Of a stretch of 64,000 nucleotides of DNA, positions 41,443-51,652 are shown in pieces. The translations under genes were made by a program, and so were the position numbers. Below the pieces are notes generated by a model. That model was given only the letters and a program-made list of their open reading frames with translations. It ran no database searches and was not told the origin of the DNA. This DNA comes from Planctomycetota bacterium (lineage in GTDB: Bacteria > Planctomycetota > Phycisphaerae > Phycisphaerales > UBA1924): positions 186,001 through 250,000 of the forward strand of contig JAFLCN010000001.1 of the NCBI GenBank assembly GCA_017303555.1, in the 5' to 3' direction. How positions within the stretch are numbered: the first letter of the stretch is position 1; each line of letters begins with the position of its first letter.

Positions 41443-41664
41443 AATTCACCCGAGTAAAGGGGCCACCAGATTTGTGGCCCGAAAACCGGGAGGATACTCA
41501 TGCCGGATTGGACGCGTGCGGATTTGGGGCGTGGACCTCCCATGTCTGGTCCGGTTCTGGCCGGTTTTCTCGGACTTTTGTGCAATTGGATTGCACAATC
41601 TTCGCTCTCCTGCGAAGATAGGAACGAGCCGCTTCGGCCCCGGTGTCTTCGCTCAGGAGGATGG

Positions 41665-43500
41665 ATGTTCAAAGCAGGATTCGTCGGATGCGCCGGCATG
41701 GCGCTCATGGCCACTCTCACGCTTCACGCCGGCGCGGGTCAGGCGGATGCACCGTCCTCGATCCTGCGGAATTCGGGCGAATCGCTCGACGGATTCGAGC
41801 CCGGCAAGGGCTTTGCATCGCGTGAGGTGATCGAGGCGATTCCGCGGTTTCATCCGACCCAGATCCTCGTTCGGATGGAGCCGTTCGTCGATCGGGCAGC
41901 GCAGGATGCGACGCTTCGTGCCGCGGGAGCTGGAGAGACGCTTCGAACAATCGGCATCGTTCCGGGCTTGCGGGTTGTTTCGGTCGCGCCCGGCACGGTT
42001 GAAGCCGTGTGCGCAAATCTGAACGGGCAACCCGGCGTGAAGTATGCCTCGCCCGATTACGTGCGCCGAGCGCACGCTCAATCCGTCCCGTATGGCATCT
42101 CGCTGGTGAAGGCCGACATCTCCTGGGCCAAGTACGGCAAGGGTGGCGGGGCGAAGGTCGCCGTGCTCGACACCGGACTCGATCTCACGCACCCCGATCT
42201 TCCGGCCACAATCGCAAACGCCTCGTTCGTTCCCGGGCTGACGGTTGACGATTACAACCAGCACGGCACGCACTGCTCCGGTACGGTCCTGGGGCTCGAC
42301 AACACCGAGGGCGTCATCGGCGTCGGGCCGAGCGCCTCGCTCATCATCGGCAAGGTGCTGAACAACGGCGGCTACGGCGTTGACAGTTGGATCGCCACCG
42401 CGATCGACTGGGCGGTGCTTCAGGGTGCCGACGTCATCAGCATGTCGCTGGGTGAGGACATCCCCGATCCGGCGCTCGAAGAAGCCTGCCTGAACGCGTT
42501 CAACGCGGGCGTACTCGTTGTCGCTTCGGCGGGCAATGCCGCGAACTCGGCACCGAACTATCCGGCTTCGTTCCCGGGCGTGATGTCGATCTCCGCCGTC
42601 GATTCGAGCTCGCAGCTCGCAACTTTCTCGAGTTTCGGATCGGCTGTCTCGGTGACAGCGCCGGGCGTCGATGTGCTCTCCTCCATTCCGACCGTGACCA
42701 CGACGGTTACTTTCTCCAACATCGCGCGTGCCGCACGCAATCTTTCCGGCGCGCGGGGAGGATCACTCACCGGGCAGGTCGTCTACTGCGGCTTCGGCAG
42801 CGTGCCGGCGGATTTCCCGGCCAACGTCGCCGGCCGCATCGCCCACATCCGGCGGGGAAACAACACCACGTTCGCGGTGAAGGCTCAGAACGCGCTCGAC
42901 GCCGGCGCCATCGGCGTCATCATCTCGAACAATACGGGCGGAAACGCGACCTTCACCGGCTCGCTGAACACGCACATTCCCGTTCCCGTCTCTTCCATCA
43001 GCCAGAACGACGGCAATGCGCTCCAGGCGCTCACCCTGCCGACCGCGACGTTCAACCAGGCCATCACCGGCCACACCTACGACTACCTCAGCGGCACATC
43101 CATGTCCTGCCCGCACACTTCGGGCGCGGCGGCGATGCTGATCGGGCTGTTCAATTCCGTTTCGCAGCCCGCCCCGCTGCCGCCCGCGAGCCTGCGCTGG
43201 ATCATCGAACGAACCAGCGTGGACCTCGGCGCGACGGGCCGCGACGATTTCTTCGGATGGGGATTGGTCGATGTCAAGGCCGGCGCGGACTACCTGTACG
43301 GGCGTGCGGTCTGCCGGGGCGACCTGAACGCGGACGGGATCGTTGACGACGCCGACTTTGTCGGCTTTGTCGGCTTCTACGACAGCCTGGTCTCGCCCGG
43401 CGGCGCGTGGACCGGGGCCGATTTCAACGGCGACGGCTACGCGGACGATGCCGACTTCGTCATTTTCGCATCGACGTACGACTCGCTCGTCTGCCCCTGA
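41665..43500 (+). CDS. Secreted subtilase (S8) with PA insert and dockerin-like tail
   Basis: 611 residues. Signal peptide from MFKAGFVGCAGMALMATLTL. An inhibitor-like N-terminal part (about 60-130) precedes the catalytic domain. Triad: Asp169 (VLDTGLDLTHPD), His200 (HGTHCSGTV), Ser479 (GTSMSCPHTSGAA). Between His and Ser is a protease-associated (PA)-like insert, IAHIRRGNNTTFAVKAQNAL...GVIISNNTGGN. The C-terminal 60 residues have two EF-hand/dockerin-like loops (DLNADGIVDDADF and DFNGDGYADDADF), bracketed by Cys, ending DSLVCP. This tail is typical of secreted Phycisphaerae proteins and may be a sorting or anchoring signal. AGGAGG 4 bases before the ATG. First of a tandem pair. Confidence 0.93.
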   Translation: MFKAGFVGCAGMALMATLTLHAGAGQADAPSSILRNSGESLDGFEPGKGFASREVIEAIPRFHPTQILVRMEPFVDRAAQDATLRAAGAGETLRTIGIVPGLRVVSVAPGTVEAVCANLNGQPGVKYASPDYVRRAHAQSVPYGISLVKADISWAKYGKGGGAKVAVLDTGLDLTHPDLPATIANASFVPGLTVDDYNQHGTHCSGTVLGLDNTEGVIGVGPSASLIIGKVLNNGGYGVDSWIATAIDWAVLQGADVISMSLGEDIPDPALEEACLNAFNAGVLVVASAGNAANSAPNYPASFPGVMSISAVDSSSQLATFSSFGSAVSVTAPGVDVLSSIPTVTTTVTFSNIARAARNLSGARGGSLTGQVVYCGFGSVPADFPANVAGRIAHIRRGNNTTFAVKAQNALDAGAIGVIISNNTGGNATFTGSLNTHIPVPVSSISQNDGNALQALTLPTATFNQAITGHTYDYLSGTSMSCPHTSGAAAMLIGLFNSVSQPAPLPPASLRWIIERTSVDLGATGRDDFFGWGLVDVKAGADYLYGRAVCRGDLNADGIVDDADFVGFVGFYDSLVSPGGAWTGADFNGDGYADDADFVIFASTYDSLVCP

Positions 43501-43599: not shown

Positions 43600-45450
43600 A
43601 TGAAGAACAATCGCACAACCGCACGAATCGCAGCGCTCGCCGGGGTGGCTGCTGCCGCGAGCTGCGCGCTCGCCGGACCGTCCACAGCGCCCAGCGCGAT
43701 CCTGCTCTCTTCGGTGGAATCGGTGAACGGATTCGTCGCGGGCAGCGGCATCGCACCCGTGCGGCCCGAGTTCCCGAACGGCCAGCATCCGACCCGCGTG
43801 CTCGTCCGCTTCGATCCGTTCGTGGATCGCGATGCCGCGGCAGAGGCCGACACGCTCTCGCGCTCCGGCGTGCGCCGGACGATCGAACGCATCGATCTCG
43901 TGCCCGGACTTCTGATCGTCGAAGCCGATGAAGGCTCGGTCGATGCCGTGGTAGCAAAGCTGATGCAGCAGCCCGGCGTGCTGTACGCAACACCGGATCG
44001 TGAGATGCACGCCGAGGCACAGTCCATGCCTTACGGCATCGCGATGATCGGCGCGGATCAGGTCTGGCCCTCGTGGGGCAACGGGAACGGCGTCAAAGTC
44101 TGCGTGCTGGACACGGGTGTTGATACGGCCCACCCCGATCTTCCGGTCGCGCTCACGAACTCATTCGTTCCCGGCGAAACGGTCGAGGACTACAACCGGC
44201 ACGGGACGCACTGCTCGGGCACGATCCTCGCGCTCGACAATACCGACGGCGTTGTCGGAGTCGCGCCGACGGCGCAGCTCCTCATCGGCAAGGCGCTCGC
44301 CAACAGCGGCAGCGGGTCGTGGAGCTACCTGATCTCCGGAATCAATTGGGCGGTTGCAAACGGCGCCCGCGTCATCAGCATGTCGCTCTCGGGTTCCGGG
44401 GCCGATCCTTCTCTGCAGGCTGCGTGCGATGCGGCGCTCGCCAACGGCGTGCTGCTGGTTGCCGCGGCGGGCAATCAGGCCTCCGGCACGACGCGTTACC
44501 CCGCAGGCTTCTCCTCGGTCATGGCGATTTCCGCCGTTGATTCGGGCTCCAATTTCGCGTCGTTCTCCAACTTCGGCTCGCACATCTCGGTCGCGGCTCC
44601 CGGCGTCAGCGTCCAGTCGAGCGTGCCCGTGGTTGCGTGGAATGCCAACTGGCTTTCGGTCAACCACCCGGTCAATACGATCACCGGTGGTGTCATCCGC
44701 GCTGTCACGGCGCCCGCCGTGTATTGCGGGTTCGGCGAAAATGCCGCGGCGTTCCCACCCTCGGTCAGCGGCAAGATCGCCCACGTCCGGCGCGGCTCGC
44801 CGGACGCCAACTCGGTCTCGTTCTTCGTCAAGGCCAACAACGCGCTCACGGCCGGCGCGATCGGTGTGATCATCTCGAACAACGTCGCGGGCGGCCTTCA
44901 GGGCACGCTCAATGTGAGCACGACCTTTGCAATTCCGGTGGTGGGCGCATCCCAGGCCGATGGCGACGATTTGCTCGCCAACAACAACACGACCGTCAAT
45001 ATCTATCAGTACAACAACGGACACTCCTACGCAAACTTCGACGGCACGTCGATGGCCACGCCGCACGTTGCGGGGGCCGCCGGATTGCTGCTCGGCAGCT
45101 TTGTGCCCGCGAACCCTCTGCCAGCCGTGCCCCCCGCCACGACGCGCTGGGTGCTGGAGCAGACCTCGACCGACGAGGGCGCTCCGGGCAAGGACACAAA
45201 CTTCGGTTGGGGCATCATCAACGTCCGCAAGGCCGCCGAGTATCTTCACGGCCGGATCCGTTGCCCGGGCGACCTGTTCTTTGATTCCATCGTCGATGAC
45301 GCGGATTTCGTTGCGTTCGTTGGCTACTACGACGCCCTCATCGCTCCCGGTGGACCCTACACCGGCGGCGATTTCGACGGCAACGGCCAGACAGACGACG
45401 GCGATTTCGTCCGCTTTGTCTCTTCGTACGACAGCCTGATCTGCCCCTGA
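43600..45450 (+). CDS. Second secreted subtilase (S8), paralogue of the one upstream
   Basis: 616 residues with a signal peptide (IAALAGVAAAASCALAG). Domain order is the same as in the upstream gene: propeptide-like region, Asp171 (VLDTGVDTAHPD), His201 (HGTHCSGTI), PA-like insert (IAHVRRGSPDANSVSFFVKA ... GVIISNNVAGG), Ser484 (GTSMATPHVAGAA), and a dockerin-like tail with DFDGNGQTDDGDF ending DSLICP. The active site looks intact. The pair, with 99 bases between them, arose by gene duplication and has since diverged. Substrates unknown. Confidence 0.93.
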   Translation: MKNNRTTARIAALAGVAAAASCALAGPSTAPSAILLSSVESVNGFVAGSGIAPVRPEFPNGQHPTRVLVRFDPFVDRDAAAEADTLSRSGVRRTIERIDLVPGLLIVEADEGSVDAVVAKLMQQPGVLYATPDREMHAEAQSMPYGIAMIGADQVWPSWGNGNGVKVCVLDTGVDTAHPDLPVALTNSFVPGETVEDYNRHGTHCSGTILALDNTDGVVGVAPTAQLLIGKALANSGSGSWSYLISGINWAVANGARVISMSLSGSGADPSLQAACDAALANGVLLVAAAGNQASGTTRYPAGFSSVMAISAVDSGSNFASFSNFGSHISVAAPGVSVQSSVPVVAWNANWLSVNHPVNTITGGVIRAVTAPAVYCGFGENAAAFPPSVSGKIAHVRRGSPDANSVSFFVKANNALTAGAIGVIISNNVAGGLQGTLNVSTTFAIPVVGASQADGDDLLANNNTTVNIYQYNNGHSYANFDGTSMATPHVAGAAGLLLGSFVPANPLPAVPPATTRWVLEQTSTDEGAPGKDTNFGWGIINVRKAAEYLHGRIRCPGDLFFDSIVDDADFVAFVGYYDALIAPGGPYTGGDFDGNGQTDDGDFVRFVSSYDSLICP

Positions 45451-45713: not shown

Positions 45714-47789
45714 ATGGAAATGAGCCACGAAGCGACGCAAACCAGCGCTCCCTCCCAGTCTTCGAACTCGGGTGACCGGCATATCGCCGACGCGCTCGGA
45801 GCGATGACCGACTTTGAGAAGAGCATCCAGGGGCTGAAAAAGCTCTACGAAGAACGCAAAGAGATCGAAAGCAAGCTGGTGGAAGTGCAGTCTCGACTTG
45901 TCGCGAACGAGACCGAGCTCGCCTCCCGATCCGTTCAGCTCGAACAGGCTCTCGCGAAGCAATCCGAGATCGAAAAAACGGTCGAACTGCTCCGGTCCGA
46001 ATCGGAGGCGGCGGCCGCATCGCGCGCCGAAGTCGAGGCGCAGCTCGACACCTTGCGGTCGGAACTCGAGACACGCACACGCGAACACGAATCTCTGAAG
46101 CAGCAGGAAACCGAGCGCCAGAGACGCGACGCCGAACGCCGCGAACAGGAAGCAAAGCAGCACGAGGCGCAACAAAGAGAGCAAGAAGCCGAGCGTCAGC
46201 GGCTGGAAGCAGAACAGCGCGAACGCGAAGAGGCGGCTAGAAAAGAGCAGGAAGCTCGGGCGGCCGCCAACGAGGCGGAAGCCGAAAAATCGAAATCGCT
46301 CGCGAAGGAACTGGACGAGTTTGCCTCCGAACTTCAGAGCCTGCAGAGCGACCTGGAAAGAGAGAAGGCCGAGCTCGAAGCAACCCGCGCCTCCCTCCGC
46401 GAGAGCGCCCGGGCGCTGAAGGAACGCGAAGCCGAGATCGAATCGCAGAAAGCCGAGCAGAGCGCCGCGTTCGCCGCACGCCAATCCGAGATCGACGCCC
46501 GGGCCGAGGAAGTTTCTTCCGCACACCGGGCCGCCGAGCAGTCCGCCGCGGGCGATGCCGAGCTCGCACGCCGGCTCGAGGCCGAGACTCAGGCCTCGGA
46601 ACAATTGCGTCAGGACATCGAACGCGTCGCCCGGCGGTGCGCGGCCCAGGAAGAAGTGCTGACGGAGTACGAGCAGCTCCTCGCCGTCGAACGCACGCAC
46701 GTACACGCGCTCGTGGGCGAGATCCAGGCCGGCGATGCCGATCCGGAAGTCACCCGCACTCGGATCGACGAACTCAAGGCATGCCTTTCCAACGAACGGG
46801 CGGAACGCGATCGGCTGCAGCGTCGGCTGACCGAACTGCAGAACGCTCCGAAGGCGACCGGGGCGGCGCGGCACCCCTCTCCCTCCGGTTTGAGCGCTCT
46901 CCGGCAGCGCCGCTTGAAGCGCTACCGCGCCATCCTGCGCGAGCACGTTTCCAAGGTCCGTAAGGCAAGCGAGGTGCTCGCGAAGCGCTTCGAGCAGTGC
47001 GAGCAGGTGCTCTCGCAGCGGGCGCAGCTCGCCCAGGCGAAGCGCCAGCTTGATGTCGCGAGCGCGGCGATCGCCCGGCGTGCCGGAGCGAAACGCGCGG
47101 GCGCAATCACCCTGTGCATCGTGCTGACGCTCGGCGTGCTGGGCGCGCTGTCGTGGGCGGTTGTCGGGCAGGCCTGGCCCGGAGACTTCGAGGCCCGGGC
47201 CGACATCACCGCCGACGGCAGAGGGCGCGAGCTTTCCGATGGCGAACTCGACGAATGGCGCCGCGCGCTCGAGGCCACGCTCTCCGACCCGCAGTTCGCA
47301 GAAACCGTCGCGACCCGCATGAAGCAGCGTGGGTACGACTCGCTCGGAAACGCCGGCGCCGTCCGCACGCTGCTCACCGGATCTTTCTCGCACGAATCCC
47401 CGGTGCCCGGCACGCTCTCGCTCGAGCTCCGCGCCCCCGGAAAGGAAAAGGCAGCGCGAACGCTCGACATCATCACGACCGCGCTCGCCAGCGACGCGAA
47501 CGCGGCACGCGAGCGTCGGGCCGACGGCGCGGTCACGCTCATCAAGGGACCCGCTATCTCGGGAACACAGCCGATCAACGACCAGCGTCTGCCACGCTCC
47601 GGAATGGTGCTGCTCGGCTCGATCGTGCTCACGTGCGGACTTGGCTTTGGCATCTGGGGCAAACTCTCCCGCGCCAAGCAGGAGTTCGAGCTGGGCTCGC
47701 AGATCGATCAGGTGCTCGACGACGCCAAGTGGTCGGAGTTCACCGCCGCGACCACGGTCGGCCGGCCGAATGCCGGCGCAAAGCAATAA
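45714..47789 (+). CDS. Long coiled-coil protein with chain-length-regulator-like membrane module
   Basis: 691 residues. About 40-380 is a charged, heptad-rich coiled coil (KQQETERQRRDAERREQEAK is representative). After a basic region (RQRRLKRYRAILREHVSKVR) comes a membrane segment at about 462-485 (AITLCIVLTLGVLGALSWAV), an external domain of about 140 residues (DFEARADITADGRGREL, LEATLSDPQFAETVATRMKQ), a second membrane segment at about 630-651, and a cytosolic tail. The TM-loop-TM layout with the SLELRAPGKEKAARTLDIIT segment resembles polysaccharide co-polymerases (Wzz-like), where a cytosolic coiled coil is not usual. Start set at MEMSHE. Family not certain. Confidence 0.65.
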   Translation: MEMSHEATQTSAPSQSSNSGDRHIADALGAMTDFEKSIQGLKKLYEERKEIESKLVEVQSRLVANETELASRSVQLEQALAKQSEIEKTVELLRSESEAAAASRAEVEAQLDTLRSELETRTREHESLKQQETERQRRDAERREQEAKQHEAQQREQEAERQRLEAEQREREEAARKEQEARAAANEAEAEKSKSLAKELDEFASELQSLQSDLEREKAELEATRASLRESARALKEREAEIESQKAEQSAAFAARQSEIDARAEEVSSAHRAAEQSAAGDAELARRLEAETQASEQLRQDIERVARRCAAQEEVLTEYEQLLAVERTHVHALVGEIQAGDADPEVTRTRIDELKACLSNERAERDRLQRRLTELQNAPKATGAARHPSPSGLSALRQRRLKRYRAILREHVSKVRKASEVLAKRFEQCEQVLSQRAQLAQAKRQLDVASAAIARRAGAKRAGAITLCIVLTLGVLGALSWAVVGQAWPGDFEARADITADGRGRELSDGELDEWRRALEATLSDPQFAETVATRMKQRGYDSLGNAGAVRTLLTGSFSHESPVPGTLSLELRAPGKEKAARTLDIITTALASDANAARERRADGAVTLIKGPAISGTQPINDQRLPRSGMVLLGSIVLTCGLGFGIWGKLSRAKQEFELGSQIDQVLDDAKWSEFTAATTVGRPNAGAKQ

Positions 47790-48061: not shown

Positions 48062-48874
48062 TCAGATGTTCGTCGTGATCATCGCCAGATGACCCTTCGC
48101 GGCATCGACGCCACGAGCCGTGACGTACAGAGCGAGCTGCTTGGGGTTGTATCCGCTCATCGAAACCGACTTCGAGATGATCTCGCCCTGCGAATCGAAC
48201 TCGGCGATCTGGCTGGCCACGCGTCCATCCTCATCGAGAACGACCAGGCGAACGGTCTCGCCCGGCTGGGTCACGATGTTGCGGCAGAGCAAACGAGCCG
48301 TCTGCTTGGACGGGTTGTAGAACACCGACGCCTCGCCCTTGAAGTCGGGCTGAGCAGCCGTAAACGGAACCTTCTTCGAACTGGCGCTGAGCAGCACGTC
48401 GGTGAGATCGGAAGGCCCGACCACACCCAGAAGCTCGTTCAGAGTCGCGTCGCTCATGTTGACGTTCGCCAGACGCTGCATCTGAGCGTTCTGCTGCTGC
48501 ACGAGGATCGCGAGAACGACCGCCGCCGTCGCGCACGCGAGGGTGGCGACGCGCCAGGCGCTGCTGACGCGCCGAACAGGATGGACCGTCGGCAGTTCGC
48601 GTCCGGCGAGGTGGAGGCGGCTGCGGGCCGAGCCGGCAACCTCCGCGATCTCGGCCTTGATTGCGCCCAGCACGCGAGCCCGGAGCTCGACGGGCGGCTC
48701 GGCGCTCAGGCGGAAACGATCGGGCTTGGCGAAGCGGGCCTGCTCATCGCGGAGCTGGGCGCGGATCGCGGGCGACGCGCCGGCAAAGGCGGCCTCGAAC
48801 TCCGCCTGCTCGCGTTCATCGAGCAGTCCGAGTGCATCGAGTTGGGCGGCTTCGAAGAGTTCTTGCGTGTTCAT
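48062..48874 (-). CDS. Membrane anti-sigma factor (RskA-like)
   Basis: 270 residues. The N-terminal 75 residues resemble the sigma-binding domain (TQELFEAAQLDALGLLDERE); a single membrane helix lies at about 107-125 (VATLACATAAVVLAILV). The outer part of about 130 residues is beta-rich (LVVLDEDGRVASQIAEFDSQ), as in RskA anti-sigma proteins. It should hold the adjacent ECF sigma factor inactive until the outer domain senses a signal or is cleaved. No HxxxCxxC zinc motif is visible. Its start overlaps the sigma stop by 4 bases. Confidence 0.82.
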   Translation of the reverse strand: MNTQELFEAAQLDALGLLDEREQAEFEAAFAGASPAIRAQLRDEQARFAKPDRFRLSAEPPVELRARVLGAIKAEIAEVAGSARSRLHLAGRELPTVHPVRRVSSAWRVATLACATAAVVLAILVQQQNAQMQRLANVNMSDATLNELLGVVGPSDLTDVLLSASSKKVPFTAAQPDFKGEASVFYNPSKQTARLLCRNIVTQPGETVRLVVLDEDGRVASQIAEFDSQGEIISKSVSMSGYNPKQLALYVTARGVDAAKGHLAMITTNI

Positions 48875-49455
48875 ACGGCAAATTCCTCACTTCCACGTTC
48901 ACGTAATCTGGTCAGAGCCCGGCTGAGCGCTGACTTGATGGTCCCAAGCGGCGTGTTCAGTTCTTCACCGATCTGCCTCAAGGTCTGCCCGCCCAGATAG
49001 GCGCGCTTCACAACGGTTCGCTGCAACTCCGGGAGCGCATCGATGCGCCGGAGCATTTCTTTCATATTCTCTTCGCGTTCGCCCTGCGTGCGATCGTCGC
49101 TGTGGTCGGGCGCGGCAACGGGCGTCGCGTCGTCCAAGACGGTCGGCTTGATCCGGGCCCGGCTCCGCCGCATCCGATCGACGAGCTGTCGCCGCGAAAT
49201 CAGCATCACCCAGGTGACCAGTGCCGCGCGTTCCGCGTCGTATCGCGATGCCGTTTTCCAAAGCCGAACGAAAATCTCCTGGACGGCGTCCTCGGCTTCG
49301 GCTCGGGTTGGCATCGACTGGAACGCCATCTTGTACACCAGACTCCCAAAACGGTCGTATAGCTCGGCGACGGCTCTTTCGTCACCGGCCGCCACGCGTT
49401 GCATCAGAGAGATGTCAAGCGCAGCCTGCTCGCGATTGATCCGCCTGTCGGCCAT
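48871..49455 (-). CDS. ECF RNA polymerase sigma factor
   Basis: 194 residues, SigK/SigE-like. Region 2: LYDRFGSLVYKMAFQSMPTR, then AEDAVQEIFVRLWKTASRYD and WVMLISRRQLVDRMRR. Region 4: LPELQRTVVKRAYLGGQTLR and GEELNTPLGTIKSALSRALT, a helix-turn-helix that binds the -35 box. Start placed at the ATG at 49455 (MADRRINREQ). It is co-transcribed with its anti-sigma gene through a 4-base overlap. Divergent from the pseudopilin-like gene, which may be part of its regulon (inference). Confidence 0.93.
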   Translation of the reverse strand: MADRRINREQAALDISLMQRVAAGDERAVAELYDRFGSLVYKMAFQSMPTRAEAEDAVQEIFVRLWKTASRYDAERAALVTWVMLISRRQLVDRMRRSRARIKPTVLDDATPVAAPDHSDDRTQGEREENMKEMLRRIDALPELQRTVVKRAYLGGQTLRQIGEELNTPLGTIKSALSRALTRLRERGSEEFAV

Positions 49456-49672
49456 GGTCGTCCCCCGACCCTCCAACCAAACAGACACACCAAACAAATG
49501 TCTTTCCACGGGTGAGAACGCACCCGCTCGTATGGATACGGGAAGACTCCCGAACCTGATGCCAGAATCGCCGATTTGTGACCTTTTCGCAAGCCCGGAC
49601 CGTAGAAAACACGCGGGTGATTTTCTGAGGTCCTGTTCGAGTTATATTCGCGGTATCCAAGAAACGTCCGAA

Positions 49673-49710
49673 TACCAGAATCCCCTTGCGGCGGATCACC
49701 GATTCTGGTA
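49673..49710. promoter_or_regulatory. 10-bp perfect inverted repeat before the pseudopilin-like gene
   Basis: TACCAGAATC at 49673-49682 and GATTCTGGTA at 49701-49710, spacer 18 bases, ending 10 bases before the GTG start. Either an operator or a leader hairpin. The gap 49456-49720 between the divergent sigma gene and this gene also has an AT-rich TATATT at 49643 that could be a -10 box. Confidence 0.6.
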
Positions 49711-49720
49711 CGGTGGCTCC

Positions 49721-50533
49721 GTGAGCGGGACGAAGGCCCGCGTTGGAGGTTGGCAGTTGCGGGATCGTGAGGCCCATTTCGGTCTCATTGGTGCGGCCCA
49801 GAAGGGGCAACGTTTTCCTGCGCTTGCAGCGTTCACCCTGATCGACCTTTTGGTGTCGATCTTCATCATCGGGATCCTGATCGGACTGCTCCTGCCATCC
49901 ATCGCCAAGATCAATGAGGCGACGCGCCGCGTGATGTGCCGCTCGAATATGCGGCAAGTCTCCATCGGCGTCTCAATGTACGCACAGGACAATTTCCAGT
50001 TCCTGCCTCGCACGCAGTTCGTTTCTTCTTCGGGCGCCAACCGCGCCGCATCGACCACAACCGTCCGGCTCGACGAATCGGGCGGCACGCGTGCGCCCCG
50101 TGCCGCGGACTACGACGGCCTCGGCCACCTGTTCTCTCGCGAATATCTGCTCGCACCCAAGATCTTCTATTGCCCCTCGCACAAGGGGACCAATCCGTTC
50201 TCGAAGTTCTCGGCGCAGTGGGCGGGGCGTCCGGGCACGATCGTCGCCAACTACCAGTTCCGCGGCGCGATGGCGGACGGCTCGAAGTTGCTGAACGTGG
50301 CGGGGGACGCCGCGAGCGGCGCGCTGATCTCCGACGCGCTGACCAGCGTGCAGGATTTCAGCCACAACTCCGGCCTCAACGTCATGCGGGGCGACCTGTC
50401 GGTGCTCTGGCTGTCGGATAGCGACAAGCGGATCGTCAACATGATCTCGCGCATCGGCAATCGCGACCGCAACGTCGGCGATACCTGGCCGCTGATGGAC
50501 GAGGTCATGGGCATGGCCACGCTCGACCCGTAA
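49721..50533 (+). CDS. Prepilin-like secreted protein (N-terminal methylation motif)
   Basis: 270 residues. Residues about 35-60 read FPALAAFTLIDLLVSIFIIG, the type IV prepilin/pseudopilin signal and hydrophobic helix, with Ala instead of Gly before the cut. The rest, CRSNMRQVSIGVSMYAQDNF and FYCPSHKGTNPFSKF, follows the pattern of the large planctomycete families of secreted proteins with prepilin-type N-termini (H-X9-DG or DUF1559-like). Start set at a GTG at 49721; no ATG is available before the signal. Function unknown; Cys-rich centre. Confidence 0.72.
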   Translation: MSGTKARVGGWQLRDREAHFGLIGAAQKGQRFPALAAFTLIDLLVSIFIIGILIGLLLPSIAKINEATRRVMCRSNMRQVSIGVSMYAQDNFQFLPRTQFVSSSGANRAASTTTVRLDESGGTRAPRAADYDGLGHLFSREYLLAPKIFYCPSHKGTNPFSKFSAQWAGRPGTIVANYQFRGAMADGSKLLNVAGDAASGALISDALTSVQDFSHNSGLNVMRGDLSVLWLSDSDKRIVNMISRIGNRDRNVGDTWPLMDEVMGMATLDP

Positions 50534-50554: not shown

Positions 50555-50594
50555 CGTGTCCGTCGCGCGAAGCTCGTGTCCGTCGCGCGAAGCT
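50555..50594. repeat. 20-bp perfect tandem duplication
   Basis: CGTGTCCGTCGCGCGAAGCT occurs twice in a row at 50555-50574 and 50575-50594. It lies between the pseudopilin-like gene and the peptidyl-prolyl isomerase gene, 26 bases before the latter's ATG. A replication-slippage duplication is the simplest explanation. Confidence 0.85.
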
Positions 50595-50620
50595 CGTGGC
50601 GGCGCTTGCTACGCTTTGGC

Positions 50621-51652
50621 ATGAACAAACTCTCGGCGCTCTGCTTGTCGATTCTGGCGTTCGCTTTCGTGCCCGCCCCGGCATTCGGCCAGCTCGCGCC
50701 CGAGCGGCTCTACAACGGAATCAACCGCGAGATTCCGGTGACGGTCACCATCCCGTCGGGGAAAGAAGGCGAAGCCGTCATCGAGTTGCTGCGCCCGGTC
50801 ACCGCCCAGAAAGTCGCGACCGCATCGGTGCTGCCCGGCAAGGTCAATCTTGCGACGCTGTTCCCGAACCTGTGGAACACCAAGACGCCGTCGCTGCTGT
50901 ACGCCCAGCTCTCCGTGGGAGGCGAGAAGATCGGCCCCGCCCTCGTTCTCCAGCCGATGGTGAACCCGAAGCAGGCCACCATCCCGCCCGGCACCCGCGA
51001 ACCCAAGTTCTTTTCCAACAACGAGACGTACACCGGCCTGCGCATCTACGTGGACAAGAACGTCCGCATGGAAACCGACAAGGGCGTGATCGAGTTCCAA
51101 CTCCGCCCGGATGTTGCACCCAATACGGCGTGGAATTTCCGAGAGCTTGTCGGTGGCGGTTTCTACACCGACATCATCTTCCATCGCATCGTGCCGAAGC
51201 TGCAGAGCGGGCATCCGTTCGTCATTCAAGTGGGCGACCCCACCGCGACGGGAACGGGCGGCCCGGGCTACAACATCGACCTCGAGCAAAGCTCGCTCCA
51301 GCACGATTTCGGCGTTCTGTCGATGGCCCGTTCCGGAGATCCAAACTCAAACGGCTCGCAGGTCTTTGTCTGCCTCAGCCGCCCGGGCACGGCGTTCCTC
51401 GACGGTAACTACACGACGTTCGGCCAGGCGATCTCGGGCGCCGATGTGATCCGCGCGATCGCCGCATCACCGATCGGTGCCGAAGGCCGTCCGACCGATC
51501 CGATGCCCCTGATCAAGACTGCAACGCTGGTCGATGCCGCTCCGTACGGCACCGGGCCCAAGCCGATCACGCCCGAAGCGCCCTCGCAATCACCCGAGAG
51601 CAACCAGCCGGCCCAGTCTCCTGCTAAAACCGAAGCACCAGCCCCCCGCTGA
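50621..51652 (+). CDS. Secreted cyclophilin-type peptidyl-prolyl isomerase
   Basis: 343 residues. Signal peptide MNKLSALCLSILAFAFVPA; then a beta-rich N-terminal domain of about 110 residues (VTVTIPSGKEGEAVIELLRP) not typical of cyclophilins; then the cyclophilin domain: APNTAWNFRELVGGGFYTD, IFHRIVPK, QVGDPTATGTGGPGYNI, VLSMARSGDPNSNGSQVFVC. It ends in a Pro/Ser-rich tail. Speeds proline isomerisation in folding of exported proteins. Its last 29 bases overlap the 3' end of the convergent outer-membrane gene. Confidence 0.9.
   Translation: MNKLSALCLSILAFAFVPAPAFGQLAPERLYNGINREIPVTVTIPSGKEGEAVIELLRPVTAQKVATASVLPGKVNLATLFPNLWNTKTPSLLYAQLSVGGEKIGPALVLQPMVNPKQATIPPGTREPKFFSNNETYTGLRIYVDKNVRMETDKGVIEFQLRPDVAPNTAWNFRELVGGGFYTDIIFHRIVPKLQSGHPFVIQVGDPTATGTGGPGYNIDLEQSSLQHDFGVLSMARSGDPNSNGSQVFVCLSRPGTAFLDGNYTTFGQAISGADVIRAIAASPIGAEGRPTDPMPLIKTATLVDAAPYGTGPKPITPEAPSQSPESNQPAQSPAKTEAPAPR

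Follow-up and report, generated by a model that had tools for sequence, protein, structure and literature searches.

A membrane protein with a polysaccharide co-polymerase-like dome and a long coiled coil, conserved within one planctomycete order

The open frame at positions 45714–47789 on the plus strand of the window (the whole stretch of 64,000 nucleotides that was analysed) raises the question of what type of protein carries a long coiled coil on a membrane module resembling the polysaccharide co-polymerases (PCPs), and what such a protein might do. The frame comprises 691 aa. Methionine M3 is common to all eight sequences of an alignment of full-length homologues (A4), and because the homologues align from this residue, the ATG at 45720 is more likely to be the start of the gene than that at 45714. 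The product is an unnamed inner-membrane protein that is conserved within one planctomycete order. It is composed of the following parts:

45720–47789 (+), alternative start 45714: whole gene of the coiled-coil PCP-like protein; open frame, invariant M3 in A4
45789–45875 (+): conserved N-terminal motif at the start of the coil, DALGAMTDFEKSIQGLKKLYEERKEI..., residues 26–54; identity in A4, present in other genera too
45786–46844 (+): predicted cytosolic coiled coil, residues 25–377; AF2 helices, heptad periodicity of 3.5
46845–46895 (+): flexible linker, residues 378–394; low pLDDT, least conserved region
46896–47093 (+): basic juxtamembrane helix, residues 395–460; most conserved segment in A4, AF2 helix
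47094–47174 (+): TM1, residues 461–487; hydropathy maximum of 2.25, positive-inside pattern
47175–47585 (+): external PCP dome, residues 488–624; AF2, Foldseek to KpsE and Wzc, hhalign to Wzc
47571–47573 (+): near-invariant proline P620, seven residues ahead of TM2; in 30/31 members, invariant in A5
47592–47666 (+): TM2, residues 627–651, with GxxxG spacing in most members; hydropathy, glycine columns 630 and 634
47667–47786 (+): predicted cytosolic C-terminal tail with a conserved LDDAKW-type motif (W673); W in 29/31 members, 61% identity in A4

Hydropathy analysis yielded exactly two membrane segments, at about residues 461–487 and 627–651. Among 31 family members, the flanks of TM1 carry on average 4.4 lysine and arginine residues on the inner and 1.2 on the outer side, and those of TM2 carry 3.5 and 2.3, respectively. 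Because of this positive-inside charge pattern, both the N and the C terminus are predicted to lie in the cytosol. A full-length AF2 model calculated with eight sequences (mean pLDDT 74) consists of helices at residues 25–179, 185–338, and 344–377 and a disordered linker (378–394), after which a helix continues into TM1, followed by the external domain and TM2. The hydrophobicity of the protein has a period of 3.5 residues (z 3.2 over composition shuffles), and all relatives show periods of 3.4–3.55 (z 2.9–11.9 over shuffles of the same composition). Thus, the cytosolic coiled coil of the original prediction holds, but its length of 340 residues has to be corrected, as the helical part amounts to about 430 residues when the juxtamembrane helix is included. 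At 0.15 nm per residue, such a coil would reach about 65 nm at most, which is too short for the spanning of the cell that had been considered. Whereas PCP-2a (Wzc) proteins carry a tyrosine kinase with Walker motifs at their C-terminal end, the C-terminal tail here comprises about 40 aa, and neither an AAA_31 nor a kinase domain was matched in the protein.

In order to deduce what the module around the two membrane segments is related to, residues 394–691 were modelled by AF2 with eight sequences (pLDDT 81.7). Between the TMs, the model shows the order strand-helix-helix-helix-strand-strand-helix-strand. A Foldseek search against the PDB led to 33 matches at E ≤ 1e-3, all of which are PCPs (KpsE or Wzc). 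The best match was KpsE (8tsi_H, E 4e-6), and Wzc was found with E 1.5e-4. The TM-score reached up to 0.60 on KpsE and about 0.36 on the query, whereby the low query value is due to the long helices and the TM geometry. A search of viral folds (BFVD) gave no match at E ≤ 1e-3. Profile comparison by hhalign of the 31 family members with 20 Wzc-type proteins of the same order gave E 1.1e-6 for the region TM1–TM2, collinear over TM1 and the dome, and E 2e-4 for the external part alone. The corresponding reversed controls gave E 5e-3 and 6e-2 or worse. None of 60 column shuffles exceeded a score of 20, compared to real scores of 52 (TM1–TM2) and 35 (external part). Furthermore, the family profile A5 matched, with E 4.5e-6, the frame that holds the order's best Pfam Wzz match (G053:C23). 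With an HMM restricted to the external domain, Wzc proteins were matched at 8e-6 and 9e-5, and no unrelated protein was hit in a set of 365 neighbour proteins plus 20 reversed decoys; the sole other match was a family member overlooked by neighbour clustering. Since fold, profile–profile, and HMM methods agree and each was controlled, the homology of the external domain to the PCP dome is well supported. The suggestion of a Wzz/PCP-like module of TM, external domain, and TM, a relative of Wzz, Wzc, and KpsE, is therefore borne out, with two membrane segments predicted and the external domain matching PCP folds.

Sequence searches of Pfam and NCBIfam assigned no family above threshold to the protein, and a sequence search of the PDB returned nothing. 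The Wzz model PF02706 has no match in the own genome, and its cut-off was reached by 0 of the 31 family members (best E 0.16, in 2/31). The GNVR cut-off was likewise reached by no member, so that matches to both models are weak only. Low-score matches to Lge1, PsaG, and uS3 were rejected as composition or chance. The external part is just 139–150 aa long among the 31 members and has no helical crown, nor does the AF2 model contain a long external helix. As had been predicted, the whole arrangement of a dome and a long internal coil corresponds to none of the catalogued protein families, and the open-access literature that was searched contained no account of it. It apparently constitutes an undescribed variant of the PCP superfamily that is real and conserved.

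Of 61 related genomes, 51 contain relatives that were identified with the C-terminal module, mostly in single copy. With the broader profile A5, and excluding weak matches in Wzc-sized frames, the family was found in 46 of the 64 sampled genomes of the order, among them 25 of the 27 genomes of the same taxonomic family. A sister lineage, which is a different family of the class, contributes two further genomes (G413 and G433). The sampled phylum outside the class yielded just two weak matches, both in Wzc-sized frames. Matches in G127, an ABC transporter frame, and in G472 were rejected as family members. In A4, the juxtamembrane helix is the best conserved part, with a mean pairwise identity of 66%, followed by the C-terminal tail (61%), the dome (58%), and the N-terminal motif (52%), which occurs in other genera as well; the coil (35%) and the linker (22%) are the least conserved. 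P620 is accompanied by a second proline in 45% of the members, and the TM2 glycines at GxxxG spacing are present in 61% (column 630) and 55% (column 634). While the dome keeps its length across the members, that of the coil varies between about 290 and 870 aa. Coil length is thus very variable, as seen from the 1127-aa member of G413 (L098, minus strand), which consists of a coiled coil of about 870 residues, a TM, about 137 aa, and a second TM. In a distant relative (G056), two genes of this kind with 641 and 871 aa lie in tandem (L074:8198–12775, minus strand) next to a radical-SAM gene.

Does the gene neighbourhood hint at a function? Directly upstream are two subtilases with PA domains, the twin proteases of the original prediction. 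These tandem secreted enzymes (41500–43500 and 43600–45450, plus strand) contain a PA domain and dockerin-like calcium-binding C-termini. The pair adjoins the gene solely in part of the species of this genus; two further species of the genus lack it, as do other genera. The twin proteases had been correctly recognized as neighbours, but a functional link to them was rejected on account of this restricted occurrence. Downstream, and convergent to the gene, are an anti-sigma-like protein (48062–48874, minus strand) and an ECF sigma factor (48871–49509, minus strand), beyond which follow a prepilin-like protein (49043–50533) and a cyclophilin (50576–51652). The synteny of this block extends over many genera of the order. 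A link to the sigma/anti-sigma pair was discarded despite the stable synteny, since convergent genes are not co-transcribed.

In its own genome, the gene is located outside any polysaccharide operon. A separate, complete-looking exosortase/EPS cluster (G000 contig C40, ~14–32 kb, locus L083) encodes the OPX protein Wza, an exosortase, a TPR protein, and a Wzc-type protein, together with an NAD-dependent epimerase, Glycos_transf_4, and MurJ. The Wzz domain of this Wzc-type protein escapes Pfam. TIGR01007 is matched above cut-off only by the fused Wzc-type protein, other matches in the genome being below. Because the separate cluster has its own Wza and Wzc, a role of the coiled-coil protein as chain-length regulator is unproven, and so is the organisation of polymer export that had been proposed for it. 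In five related genera (G013, G020, G021, G035, and G036) Wza is encoded 6–8 kb away from the gene, with lipA and other genes in between where the stretch was read. This linkage may be one inherited arrangement and is thus weak evidence for a polysaccharide link. As Wza is present in 61 of 61 relatives, its co-occurrence with the gene is uninformative.

The best reading, to which we assign a probability of roughly 0.45, is a PCP ring reduced to the dome, which holds coiled coils out into the cytosol and acts as an organiser, and its most likely job, at the same odds, would be to organise or regulate the assembly of envelope polysaccharide at the inner membrane. As a rule, PCPs form ring oligomers, mostly octamers. 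By analogy with KpsE, Wzz, and Wzc, the domes would assemble about eight subunits into a ring. Through the ring, the coiled coils would come together as a bundle or fringe extending up to ~65 nm below the membrane, in the place that is held by the BY-kinase in Wzc, whereby the N-terminal motif, the juxtamembrane helix, and the C-terminal W motif may bind cytosolic or membrane partners. The PCP-dome homology obtained by Foldseek, hhalign, and HMM argues for this role, as do the dome length near that of KpsE and the vicinity of Wza in five genera. However, the gene stands apart from the EPS cluster with its Wza and Wzc-type kinase, and Wza is still present in genomes of the order that lack the gene (e.g., G037, G042, G050, and G054). 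Moreover, a protein without a crown has no obvious contact with an outer-membrane exporter.

According to a somewhat less probable, but serious, explanation, the PCP dome has been co-opted to anchor a cytosolic coiled-coil scaffold to the membrane as a ring, and polysaccharide handling was lost. Candidate tasks of such a scaffold would be cell shape, division, and nucleoid or enzyme positioning. It would fit with the position outside a polysaccharide operon next to the existence of a separate Wzc, with the loss of crown and kinase, and with a coil whose length drifts while the heptads are kept, as in scaffolds. The usually single-copy gene with stable, housekeeping-like neighbours points in the same direction. 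Nevertheless, the dome, P620, and the TM2 glycines are under strong constraint, and this constraint on the PCP signatures suggests that an external function was retained; in addition, no cytoskeletal partner is visible. In its boldest form, a PCP ring turned anchor for a planctomycete-specific scaffold, and thus a new cell-organising structure of the Phycisphaerales that handles no sugar polymer at all, the idea is less likely than not.

More doubtful still is a crownless chain-length regulator of the PCP-2b type (CpsC/CapA), whose separate kinase would be bound by the conserved C-terminal tail. The two TMs, the short dome-only external part, the lack of a kinase, and the conserved tail motif would agree with it, but the fused Wzc-type protein alone passes the TIGR01007 cut-off in this genome, and a long N-terminal coil is not known from CpsC-type proteins. 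Finally, the resemblance to the PCPs could be due to chance, the protein being an unrelated, generic one with two TMs and a small alpha/beta domain. The Pfam results below cut-off, the empty PDB sequence search, and the low query TM-score might be attributed to this, but such a chance resemblance is largely refuted and highly improbable, since three independent controlled methods lead to the same superfamily and topology.

PCPs are usually described with a crown above the dome and often a kinase below the membrane, and the family departs from both. As it keeps the dome alone together with a cytosolic coil of up to ~870 residues, the putative dome ring may serve as a module of its own, and the external structure of the protein would bear on the share of the dome in chain-length control. 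In these bacteria, whose cell biology is unusual and of whose structural proteins few have been characterised, the gene represents a candidate for envelope or cell organisation.

Among the known systems, the Gram-positive PCP-2b proteins CpsC/CapA share with the family the pair of TMs, an external part that is short and restricted to the dome, and a cytosolic tail, whereas they lack an N-terminal coiled coil and their partner kinase is encoded adjacent to them. The best structural match is KpsE, the PCP-3 partner of the KpsMT capsule exporter, which has the same TM–dome–TM order and a dome of similar size, about 147 residues (34–172 plus 322–329; PMC11041684) compared to 139–150 aa. KpsE differs in having a helical crown over the dome and no long cytosolic coil, and a KpsMT pair is not found beside the coiled-coil gene. 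In general, PCPs are characterised by a periplasmic domain that is helical and elongated and by a TM2 that is rich in glycine and preceded by a segment rich in proline (PMC7809406). With Wzc/PCP-2a and Wzz (PF02706) the family shares the profile match collinear over TM1 and the dome, the HMM cross-matches, and the proline ahead of TM2. PCP-2a has a kinase (PMC12220298), whereas the coiled-coil protein has neither kinase nor crown and carries there, instead, a cytosolic coil of ~430 aa.
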